DNA of 64,000 bases. Origin: Bacteroidia bacterium. Lineage in GTDB: Bacteria; Bacteroidota; Bacteroidia; J057. Under the pieces are notes generated by a model that saw nothing but the letters and a program-made list of their open reading frames with translations, ran no database searches and had not been told where the DNA came from. Positions 4,459 to 8,012 of this stretch are shown in pieces. Both the position numbers and the translations under genes were made by a program. The stretch covers positions 124,001 to 188,000 of the forward strand of contig JAUIKF010000002.1 of the NCBI GenBank assembly GCA_030430575.1. The letters are read 5' to 3'. Within the stretch, counting starts at the first letter, position 1. Every line of letters starts with the position of its first letter.

Positions 4459-6741
4459 CTACCTCGGCCCTGCGGGCAAATGATCGTGTAAGTAAGTTGT
4501 CAATAAGTGACGCAAATGCCTACTGGTATTTTTCCCTTCAAAAATACCGTGGGAACGATTGGGGTAGGCCATCATGCTAAAAGGCTTATTGTGAAAGATC
4601 AATTCATTGATGACAGCTTCCGCATTTTGATAGTGCACATTGTCATCGCCTGTACCATGGACAATGAGTAATTTGCCTTTGAGGTTTTTGGCGTGTGTGA
4701 CAGGAGATCCTTGTGTATAGCCCTCCGGATTGTCTGCCAATAGCCCCATATAGCGCTCTTGATAGATCGCGTCATAATAGCGCTGATCGCCTACCGGTGC
4801 TACAGACATCCCTACATGATAGAGTTCAGGAAACTGAAACATCGCGCTGAGCGTCGAAGAGCCGCCCCCACTCCAGCCCCAAATCCCGACACGCGTCTCA
4901 TCGAGAAAGGAAAACTTCGCCAAAGCAGCTTTAAGGCCTTTGGCCTGGTCACCCGCATTGACGATGCCGATCTTGCCATAAATGGCCTTGCGCCATGTGC
5001 GGCCCCGAGGGGCAGGCGTACCTCGGCTGTCGAGGCTCATCACGATATAGCCTTGCTGTGCCAACATCAAGTGCCATAGGTAGCCGCTTCCACCCCATAC
5101 GTTTTTCACAGTCTGACCCCAAGGCTCCGAGTAGACATAAATAAGGACAGGGTATTTCTTCGAAGGGTCAAAAGAAGGAGGTTTGATCATATAGCCGTCT
5201 ACTGTAGGCCCATCTTCAAGGGTTACCTTGAAATAATCGACTGCCTGGCGGCTCAGTGCATTTACTTTCTCATGAAGTCCTGAATTGGTGACCAATACTT
5301 CCTTGACCTGATGATTGGGCAGGGAAATGAGGTTTTTTACAGGTGGGGTTTCAAGATTGGAATAGGTATGAAAGGCCCAAGCGCCATCGGGAGCTAACTG
5401 ATAGCTATGGTGCCCTGTCTGCTCCGCAGGAGACAGGCGTTTGGCCTTCCCTTTTCCATTCAGCTTGCTCCGGTAGAGGTAGCGTTCGGTCGCATTATCA
5501 GGCGAAGCAATATAGTAAAGCCATCCCCCATCCTCATCCACCAATTCCAATGACATGACATCAAATGGCCAATCCGTCAAGCATTTCACCTCTTCCCCAT
5601 CACGAGATACCTCGTAGACATGGCGCCAGCCGTCCCGCTCGCTGACCCACAAGAAGGCTTCGCCATTTTTTATCCAATAAAATTCATTGTAAACATCCAC
5701 CCAAGTGTCCTCCTCTTCCGTCATCACCAAGGTCACATCTCCTGTATGTACATTTCCCAAAAACACCTTATTGGTGTTCTGGCGACGATTCAATTGCTGG
5801 AAGACAATTTCATCCGAATTGGCTGCCCATTCCATCCTCGGCAGGTAATGGTCGCGTGGCGCACCTTCTACCTTCATCCAGACAATTTCCCCTCCAGCAC
5901 TCGAAACCACCCCCAAGCGTGCGGAAGAAAGGGTTTCCCCTACTTTCGGATACTGAACAGGGATCAGGCGTGGATAAAGAGAGTCGGTATTATTGATCAT
6001 ATAAAAATCTCGCACACCTGATGCATCTAACTGCCAAAAGGCAATTTTACTGCCATCAGGACTCCAGCGGAATCCATCCCTACAGAAGAATTCTTCTTCA
6101 TACGCCCAGTCAAATGTTCCATTGATCATGGAAGTAGAGCCGTCATGCGTAAGCTGATGAATCACGCCTGATGATACCTCCTCCACATAGACATTGTGCT
6201 CCCGGACATAGGCGACCTTGCTCCCATCAGGAGAGAATTTTGCAAACATCAAAGTTGCTTCTGCCGCCTCTTCTCCTCCCATTTTTTTCAATTTATTGTC
6301 CTCCAAAGAAAGCACCCAATAGTCGCCTTTGGTATTGGCGCGCCATACGCGGCGCGTATTGGTGAATATGAGGAGCTGACTGCGATCTGCTGACCATGTA
6401 TAGGATTGGATGCCAAGGGGCCGTTTTGCGCCTTCAGGCGTGAGCTGCGCAGCAGTCACGAGGACTGTTGAAGTGCCTGTCTCAGGATTGTATAACACCA
6501 ATTCACGTGCATGTGGAGTCTCTTTAGAAGCCTCCAACAGCACATAGCCATCCTCCTGCCAACGCGCAGGTCCAAACCTGCCTTGGGAGAATTCCCCACT
6601 GTTGAAGATGCGATCTACGGTTAGAATAGAATCCTGTGCTTTTAATGCCATACTTGTCAAAAGCAGGAGCAGGGCAATGGTCAATGCTTGCCCTGAGCAG
6701 CGTCGAAGGGGAAAAGGGTTAATGGTTAATGATTTTTTCAT
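4459..6741 (-). CDS. Dipeptidyl peptidase IV family serine peptidase (S9B)
   Basis: 760 residues, the usual length of the family. A secreted signal sequence is followed by the eight-bladed DPP-IV propeller and a C-terminal alpha/beta hydrolase. The propeller carries FDWAYEEEF, the paired-glutamate motif that anchors the substrate N-terminus. The catalytic triad is visible: S624 in GWSGGGSS, D699 in HGTGDDNVH and H731 in NRSHGI. The enzyme removes X-Pro or X-Ala dipeptides from peptide N-termini, probably in the periplasm, for peptide use. Odd point: the signal sequence contains PLRRCSGQA (residues 11-19), which is the translation of a widespread GC-rich genomic repeat. Transcribed away from recF with a repeat-filled 155-bp gap between them. 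Confidence 0.93.
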   Translation of the reverse strand: MKKSLTINPFPLRRCSGQALTIALLLLLTSMALKAQDSILTVDRIFNSGEFSQGRFGPARWQEDGYVLLEASKETPHARELVLYNPETGTSTVLVTAAQLTPEGAKRPLGIQSYTWSADRSQLLIFTNTRRVWRANTKGDYWVLSLEDNKLKKMGGEEAAEATLMFAKFSPDGSKVAYVREHNVYVEEVSSGVIHQLTHDGSTSMINGTFDWAYEEEFFCRDGFRWSPDGSKIAFWQLDASGVRDFYMINNTDSLYPRLIPVQYPKVGETLSSARLGVVSSAGGEIVWMKVEGAPRDHYLPRMEWAANSDEIVFQQLNRRQNTNKVFLGNVHTGDVTLVMTEEEDTWVDVYNEFYWIKNGEAFLWVSERDGWRHVYEVSRDGEEVKCLTDWPFDVMSLELVDEDGGWLYYIASPDNATERYLYRSKLNGKGKAKRLSPAEQTGHHSYQLAPDGAWAFHTYSNLETPPVKNLISLPNHQVKEVLVTNSGLHEKVNALSRQAVDYFKVTLEDGPTVDGYMIKPPSFDPSKKYPVLIYVYSEPWGQTVKNVWGGSGYLWHLMLAQQGYIVMSLDSRGTPAPRGRTWRKAIYGKIGIVNAGDQAKGLKAALAKFSFLDETRVGIWGWSGGGSSTLSAMFQFPELYHVGMSVAPVGDQRYYDAIYQERYMGLLADNPEGYTQGSPVTHAKNLKGKLLIVHGTGDDNVHYQNAEAVINELIFHNKPFSMMAYPNRSHGIFEGKNTSRHLRHLLTTYLHDHLPAGPR
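6686..6711. repeat. REP-like repeat translated inside a signal peptide
   Basis: GCTTGCCCTGAGCAGCGTCG and the following AAGGGG belong to the CCCTGAGC...GTCGAAGGG type of short repeat found in many bacterial genomes, normally between genes. Here it lies in frame at residues 11-20 of the DPP-IV-type protein. Recognition is from memory of that repeat's consensus. Confidence 0.6.
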
Positions 6742-6797
6742 AAGTTTATTGAAGAATGAAAAGGGAAAATTGTCTTAGTCTGACAGCGAGTCTTCGA

Positions 6798-6898
6798 GCG
6801 ATCTCGCAGCGAGGGCTGTCTTCAGCCCGAGCGGTCTCGCAGTGAGCGTCAGCGAACGATCTCGCAGCGAGGGCCGTCTTCGGCCCGAGCGGTCTCTC
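6798..6898. repeat. GC-rich tandem repeat with hairpins at the recF 3' end
   Basis: Two copies of a 43-nt unit (6798-6840 and 6856-6898, offset 58 nt) share GATCTCGCAGCGAGGGC, a TCTT loop and GCCCGAGCGGTCTC. Each holds a 6-bp hairpin around TCTT: GGGCTG/CAGCCC at 6813-6828 and GGGCCG/CGGCCC at 6871-6886. The T-A pair of the first copy is C-G in the second, a compensated change. The second copy overlaps the recF stop codon at 6897-6899. The long open frame through it is only a product of the repeat's composition. Confidence 0.8.
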
Positions 6899-8012
6899 AA
6901 TCCCTACTCGCCTCCCCGTCTTGGACGGAAAAGAAAGCAATAGGCCTTGAGGTCTTTTGGGCAAAAATAGCCTCCATTCGGTCCCTGGACGTATCCGTCA
7001 CAAAAATCTGCCCTTCGATCTCTCGATCAAAGATATGGGCGATCTGACTGAGGCGGTGCTCATCAAGCTTGTCGAAGACATCGTCGAGGAGGAGAATAGG
7101 CGCTTGTAATTTTTGCTGCTGAAGGAGCTGGTACTGAGCGAGTTTGAGGGCAATGACAAAGGTTTTTTGCTGACCTTGAGAGCCAAAGTCTTTCACCGAA
7201 TGTTTGTCGATCTTAAAGCGCAAATCATCGCGGTGGATGCCTACGCTGGTGTAGAGATTGTAGCGGTCTTTTTGTTCGCTCTCTTTGTAGCGGGCGAGCC
7301 AATGGTCGATGGTGTTTTCGGTGATTTGGGAATGATAATGTAAGGAAGGCACTTCTTGCTGGGCGACTATCTTTTTGAAATACTGCTCAAAAATCGGCTG
7401 AAAGTCCGCGATGAAGTCCGTCCGCGCTTGAAAAATGGCTTTGCCATGTGGGACGAGTTGTGCGTCCCATAATTCGAGCTGCTCGGAATCGAAATTGCCA
7501 TGCGCTGCGAACAGCTTGAGCTGGGCGTTGCGCTGAGCCAGTAAGCGATCGTATTGGATGAGGTGCGTAAGATAGGAAGGGCTGTATTGGGAAATCAGCA
7601 TGTCCAGAAAGCGCCTGCGGCCTGCGGAAGGACCATTGATCAGGTCCGTATCTCCTGGCAAAATCGCCACAAGTGGCAGGCTGCCGATATGCTCACTCAG
7701 CTTCTTGAGCGGCTTTTGATCCACCAACACCTTTTTCCCTTTCCCTTTTACAAAATTGCACTGAATCTCCTCCGAAATATTCTCCTTCGTCACCTGCCCT
7801 TTTACCACAAAAAACGGCGCCCCTTCTTCTACCACCTGTTTGTCATTACTTCCTCTTAGCGACCGAGTGAAGGCCAAATAATGCAACGCATCCAGAATAT
7901 TCGTCTTTCCCGCCCCATTGGACCCATAAATACAATTGATCCCAGAAACCAATTCCAGTTCCAGGGAAGTGTAATTGCGAAAATGTGTCAGTTCAAGGGA
8001 AGCGATATGCAT
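6897..8012 (-). CDS. recF: DNA replication and repair protein RecF
   Basis: 371 residues, a normal RecF length. It is an SMC-like ATPase that helps load RecA onto gapped DNA with RecO and RecR and supports restart of stalled forks. The N-terminus reads LTHFRNY, typical of RecF, with Walker A at residues 30-38 (GSNGAGKTN). The signature region and Walker B follow near the C-terminus (GSQGQQKTF, LLLDDVFDKLD). The ATG at 8012 gives the canonical N-terminus. In many bacteria recF sits next to dnaA-dnaN-gyrB; here its neighbours are a peptidase and a flavin reductase, so it is not in an origin cluster. The last codons run into a GC-rich tandem repeat. Confidence 0.96.
   Translation of the reverse strand: MHIASLELTHFRNYTSLELELVSGINCIYGSNGAGKTNILDALHYLAFTRSLRGSNDKQVVEEGAPFFVVKGQVTKENISEEIQCNFVKGKGKKVLVDQKPLKKLSEHIGSLPLVAILPGDTDLINGPSAGRRRFLDMLISQYSPSYLTHLIQYDRLLAQRNAQLKLFAAHGNFDSEQLELWDAQLVPHGKAIFQARTDFIADFQPIFEQYFKKIVAQQEVPSLHYHSQITENTIDHWLARYKESEQKDRYNLYTSVGIHRDDLRFKIDKHSVKDFGSQGQQKTFVIALKLAQYQLLQQQKLQAPILLLDDVFDKLDEHRLSQIAHIFDREIEGQIFVTDTSRDRMEAIFAQKTSRPIAFFSVQDGEASRD

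Follow-up and report, generated by a model that had tools for sequence, protein, structure and literature searches.

An array of hairpins beside recF

In the window (the whole stretch of 64,000 nucleotides that was analysed), recF and a peptidase-like ORF are separated by a GC-rich array in which a sequence-only reading had noted two tandem copies, each with a hairpin. The tandem repeat was confirmed as a 52-nt direct repeat (6790-6841 and 6848-6899, 88% identity), and both hairpins lie where they had been placed, GGGCTG-TCTT-CAGCCC with its stem-loop at 6813-6828 and GGGCCG-TCTT-CGGCCC at 6871-6886, one compensated pair apart. A 25-mer core has two matches in the window and none in 100 shuffles. 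The array proved larger than had been recognised, with four hairpins (6785-6890) plus half a centre and an outer terminus. By comparison with other copies in the genome, it consists of the right arm and a leftover part of the centre, the left arm being absent. Its features and neighbours are as follows.

4459-6741, minus strand: peptidase-like ORF of 760 aa, presumably of dipeptidyl-peptidase IV type as judged by reading its sequence; its start lies on the opposite side of the array from recF
6770-6784, plus strand: half-centre remnant TTGTCTTAGTCTGAC, as compared with the centres of 64 two-armed copies
6785-6799, plus strand: hairpin 1 (small), AG-C-GA-GTCTTC-GA-G-C
6808-6832, plus strand: hairpin 2, AG-C-GA-GGGCTG-TCTT-CAGCCC-GA-G-C, the first of the two hairpins noted earlier (66.9 bits with covariance model R1)
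6841-6857, plus strand: hairpin 3, AG-T-GA-GC-GTCA-GC-GA-A-C, with a T-A outer pair and a GNNA loop; contains CTCGCAGTGAG
6866-6890, plus strand: hairpin 4, AG-C-GA-GGGCCG-TCTT-CGGCCC-GA-G-C, the second hairpin noted earlier (68.5 bits with the same model)
6891-6896, plus strand: outer terminus GGTCTC (GAGACC when read from recF), touching the recF stop codon
6897-8012, minus strand: recF, whose TGA stop (complement of 6897-6899) adjoins the array and whose C-terminus is native

A further hairpin with a GA/GA step, CCTGAGC...GTCGAAGG (6692-6709), is located in the signal-peptide region at the coding start of the 760-aa ORF. Copies of it number 28 in the 688 kb that surround elements and 11 in 400 kb from other parts of the same genome, and it occupies the centre of several elements.

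In its entirety, the 136-nt recF region has no unusual stability relative to shuffles (z -1.08 and -0.35), so evidence for its fold must be comparative, not energetic. Across 53 distinct aligned units, the covariation score was 0.457 versus 0.173 in shuffles, none of 500 of which scored as high, and this strongly supports the earlier proposal that the folded structure is selected. Paired cells made up 88.9% of the total versus 71.1% in shuffles, and double changes occurred at seven of the eight pairs. Cells with a double change numbered 62 versus 19.1 in shuffles, and stem changes that are as often uncompensated as compensated, the pattern named beforehand as speaking against selection, were not found. 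When, as a control, the partner was slid by 1-3 columns, the score was at most 0.10. One row of alignment A1 (L149), a chance match in coding sequence, was kept in these tests and excluded from alignment A2 and the covariance model. The Y-R pair was CG in 37 of the 53 units, TA in eight, TG in five and something else in three; among 220 distinct hairpins, the outer pair was TA in 90, CG in 78, TG in 16, GC in 10 and others in 26. Columns 17-18 are mixed, with Watson-Crick pairs in some units and a GA/GA step in others. Covariation is strong in these alignments, both in the stem and at the Y-R pair. The neighbouring CTCGCAGCGAG/CTCGCAGTGAG hairpin (CTCGCAGYGAG), which had also been thought to keep pairing, did not hold up: its covariation was 0.117 versus 0.124 in shuffles, with 335 of 500 as high (53 units), and we rejected it as a linker hairpin, its C/T change belonging to the Y-R pair that spans the main hairpin.

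Anatomy and copies of the element

With a median length of 242 bp, the full element consists of two inverted arms (in two-armed clusters, minus on the left and plus on the right) with an AT-richer centre between them, most arms of two-armed elements carrying three or four hairpins. In the direction leading out from the centre, each hairpin unit reads AG-Y-GA-(stem-loop)-GA-R-C, and the hairpins are joined by GRTCTCGCA or GRTCTGACA; in alignments A1 and A2 the units are flanked mostly by TCTCGCAG or TCTGACAG on the 5' side and by CGRTCT on the 3' side. The columns of the internal GA/GA mismatch are constant in the alignment, and many large hairpins contain a further GA/GA step internally. Sequence is free in these hairpins and form is fixed (G-C and Y-R pairs, tandem GA/GA mismatch, stem, short loop), with constant linkers. 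The centre reads GAGACTAAAGGCA...TTTTCTCTTGTCTC and is found in both directions. The innermost hairpins of the two arms commonly differ in size, one being small and the other large, and which side has the small one does not depend on how the centre is oriented. Because the outer stem measures just 2 bp, a generic hairpin scan with a minimum outer stem of 4 misses the element. Rfam gave no match above its gathering score and sub-threshold ones only at E values of 1.8 or more.

In the source genome (8.16 Mb, 127 contigs), a 28-base core was found with at most three mismatches at 159 sites, 74 forward and 85 reverse, and the reversed control pattern at none. Using 52 distinct hairpins, we built a covariance model, which matched 147 of the 150 candidates scored there; by both counts, the element has the high copy number of a short palindrome that is expected of REPs. 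Pattern search found no core in 59 relatives, one of the same genus, and the covariance model found no match in 21 other genomes of the order or, with stricter filters, in 394 other genomes of the phylum; exact core patterns gave nothing in a named genome collection or in viral contigs. The element is a species-specific dispersed repeat. Surveying about 690 kb around known copies yielded 96 clusters, the window included, of which 64 are two-armed and a few are single weak motifs. These loci had been sampled for holding the core, except for 320 kb of contig C66 and 80 kb of contig C119; the C66 stretch, taken irrespective of the element, held four clusters, which by extrapolation suggests a genome-wide total of about a hundred elements.

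At L074 (5124-5472), one arm unit is tandemly amplified with a 68-base period on one strand only. At L083, two copies (4860-5088 and 7564-7758) are 96% identical with identical right flanks, and the ORFs next to them are similarly long (843 and 816 codons), a gene apparently having been duplicated locally together with its element.

Gene ends and strand polarity

We kept 113 outer ends, dropping those with no clean terminus or with array-like sequence outside, and 70 of them face a gene running toward the element. The distance to its stop codon is -2 to +1 nt in 53 of these 70 and -2 to +5 nt in 60, with genes taken from a longest-ORF picker, so that some distances are wrong (four at -10 or less, six at 30 or more). 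In 34 of the 70, a TGA stop takes its GA from the start of GAGACC, and in nine a TAG stop takes its G. Stop usage was biased beside elements (TGA 45, TAG 27, TAA 7; n = 79) versus elsewhere in the same sampled loci (TAA 139, TGA 121, TAG 68; n = 329, one artefact; p 3e-9). The other 43 ends face a start, 17 of them at 14-25 nt from it. Truncation of the abutted genes was rejected for the three tested, since relatives align up to position 881 of 882 in MutS, 537 of 539 in adenine deaminase (with a match in just two of five relatives) and 368 of 371 in RecF, the first two being what we take these proteins to be from reading their sequences; the readable ortholog tails of abutted proteins finish at similar places. 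The element occupies the space up to what the genes need, through landing there or through later loss of neutral DNA.

The hairpins have a polarity. Among non-Watson-Crick pairs on the centre-outward strand of the 220 distinct hairpins, G.T outnumbers A.C by 41 to 7 (p 6e-7); equal weight on both strands would give equal numbers, so this ratio indicates selection on one strand. GNA triloops occur on that strand in 40 distinct hairpins and the complement TNC in four (p 2e-8), both p values being too small because the sequences share ancestry. Moreover, of 182 units, the centre-outward (GA) strand folds more stably than its complement in 175 when RNA parameters are used and in 160 when DNA parameters are used. 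These three measures agree in indicating that selection acts on one strand per arm, 5' to 3' from the centre outward. With the invariant GA/GA step, the two ratios (41:7 and 40:4) describe, at the level of sequence only, the strand-specific folded hairpin of REPs, which in one group of them has a conserved stem mismatch.

Could this strand be selected as RNA? Under one alternative, the element is a 3'-end module, acting between genes as a two-way terminator and mRNA 3' stabiliser and selected in the transcript. Consistent with this, convergent gaps make up 32 of the 87 gaps with an element versus 58 of 401 others in the same sampled loci (p 6e-6), a T-run is present in the centre of 36 of 62 copies versus 9.2 in shuffles (none of 200 as high), and the ends touch stop codons as described above. 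However, the folding (GA) strand, on which the hairpins form best, is antisense to the gene whose stop the arm touches, and 12 of the 87 gaps are divergent. The neighbour on the other side would transcribe the GA strand for 97 arms, whereas no neighbour would do so for the remaining 63 of the 160; yet the Watson-Crick fraction is 0.959 in the former and 0.958 in the latter, and wobble:A.C counts are 43:5 and 24:5, respectively. Since pairing is equal with or without a transcribing neighbour, a role in the mRNA of neighbouring genes does not account for the structure. The loops are mainly TCTT, GNA and GNYA, and the RNA-stable types are rare (six distinct GNRA and one UNCG). The suggestion of a structured RNA is therefore disfavoured as far as an mRNA element is meant, the folding strand being the same irrespective of transcribing neighbours and Rfam giving no match, and we consider the 3'-end module rather unlikely as the selected function, with a side effect on transcription termination at convergent genes being likely.

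By contrast with the RNA-stable types, GNA and GNNA loops closed by two or more G-C pairs are described in PMC4686876 as extraordinarily stable DNA mini-hairpins, the GCGAAGC mini-hairpin melting at 78 C, and these loops favour folded single-stranded DNA. The difference between the two strands is larger under the RNA energy set than under the DNA set, which counts against this reading, and folding energies alone leave the choice between RNA and DNA unsettled. We infer that the selected state is probably folded single-stranded DNA. Sequence alone seldom tells RNA from single-stranded DNA selection on repetitive palindromes; here, hundreds of covarying, strand-biased hairpins, with and without transcription of that strand, argue for selection on one strand as such.

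Mobility and relation to known repeats

A RAYT-type transposase associated with the repeat had been proposed as a check on its nature. The source genome has three Y1 transposase genes (PF01797); a RAYT query retrieved one gene, and NCBIfam classes one of the three as a RAYT. No copies of the element lie beside any of the three, two of which adjoin other palindromes, and a RAYT of the source genome was thus rejected as the mover. The sole NF047646-type RAYT of this genome (L184, 1170-2320) has a separate repeat, GGGCGGATT...AATCCGCCC, on either side, look-alikes of which occur at relatives' RAYTs, and an IS200-type Y1 transposase gene (L091, 140-790) is ringed by copies of the perfect palindrome TATTGCGACGGGTTTAAACCCGTCGCAATA.

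A sister genome of the same genus, G001, carries a different hairpin family in inverted arrays (26 core sites), with GA on both sides of the innermost hairpins and none at the repeated outer units. A RAYT gene (NF047646, E 1.9e-28) has one of these arrays, of seven tandem copies, immediately upstream of it, which links the array design to RAYTs in the sister species, via one side of one gene only.

We also considered an ordinary MITE moved by a double-strand transposase via GAGACC...GGTCTC terminal repeats. Both termini are kept in 56 of the 64 two-armed copies, and the architecture is fixed, the best other copy having a median of about 86% identity across about 90% of the length; no recent full-length copies were seen, the top match between unrelated loci being about 91% identical. 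A MITE of this kind appears improbable to us, as target-site duplications of 2-9 bp were not above shuffles and it would leave the one-strand selection on internal hairpins unexplained. An antisense RNA array, with promoters in the centre making GA-strand RNA on both arms, would explain the strand polarity irrespective of neighbours but is the least credible alternative, given that the exact Bacteroidota -33/-7 promoter, in the consensus familiar to us, is absent and its mismatched form occurs in 5 of 64 centres versus a shuffle mean of 3.4 and maximum of 7.

On balance, then, the recF array probably belongs, as one arm, to a REP/BIME-like composite repeat that is non-autonomous and has multiplied in this species. 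The selected strand of this composite repeat would fold when the DNA is single-stranded, as for instance on the lagging strand, and its mismatched hairpins would be recognised by a putative strand-specific HUH/Y1-type enzyme (TnpA-REP, IS200/IS605) that may have copied or moved the element in the past. Copies at gene ends would persist because the GAGACC terminus completes or follows the stop codon without damage. Both the single-stranded DNA step and the enzyme are inferences. Counting against this reading are the missing GTAG or CGTC tag, the three Y1 genes with no copies beside them, and the lack of target-site duplications and of recent full-length copies. A broader proposal, which we advance tentatively and with considerable doubt, is that single-stranded-DNA hairpin arrays form a class apart from GTAG/CGTC REPs. 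The recognition code of this class would consist of tandem G.A mismatches together with GNA mini-hairpin loops, all stems would be free, and unrelated versions across species of one genus would have been copied to stop codons by a putative strand-specific recombinase. Because the stems are free and the GA mismatch is fixed, one can predict what a recognising protein would read, and the exact stop-codon fit provides a clean system for how short repeats settle in a compact genome.

Several known systems share parts of this design. In the mainly open-access literature covered, we found no match for the array design or for tandem G.A in bacterial repeats. Integron attC sites act as substrates in the form of a folded single strand and lie beside an ORF stop codon; the element likewise adjoins stop codons and may be a single-stranded substrate, but no cassette array was seen in the gene context, and its arms, inverted with respect to each other, occur between genes of every orientation. 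BOX elements of Streptococcus pneumoniae are modular, dispersed and intergenic, with inner modules variable in number. The element resembles them in these respects and differs in its two inverted hairpin arms, covarying stems and stop-codon abutment. With bacterial MITEs such as ERIC, NEMIS and RUP, which are named in PMC3733652, it shares a size within 70-300 bp, terminal inverted repeats, intergenic location and transcribable hairpins, but no target duplication was seen, and it shows one-strand selection.

REPs are described as short palindromes of high copy number, tagged GTAG or CGTC and often paired in inverted orientation; they lie at gene ends, with a preference for convergent and tandem ones, and their GTAG termini often give flanking ORFs their TAG stop (PMC3733652). 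TnpA-REP binds REP in single-stranded form and acts strand-specifically, and that of E. coli requires a stem mismatch (PMC8266576). Unlike REP/BIME/REPIN systems, the element has no unpaired GTAG or CGTC tag at one end (alignments A1 and A2) and no flanked RAYT in its own genome, and it carries several hairpins with differing stems per arm plus a constant tandem GA/GA mismatch. Of the earlier suggestions (REP-like element, mobile short repeat or structured RNA), the first stands as the best but falls short in tag and transposase; as these two tests failed, we name the element REP/BIME-like rather than a member of a REP superfamily. Like REP/BIME/REPIN with TnpA-REP (RAYT), it comprises imperfect short palindromes in more than 100 copies, in inverted pairs and clusters, at gene 3' ends, with stop-supplying termini and a strand-specific hairpin that has a conserved stem mismatch, in so far as those systems are covered by PMC3733652 and PMC8266576. 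It is thus best filed as a REP/BIME-like composite outside the described REP superfamilies.
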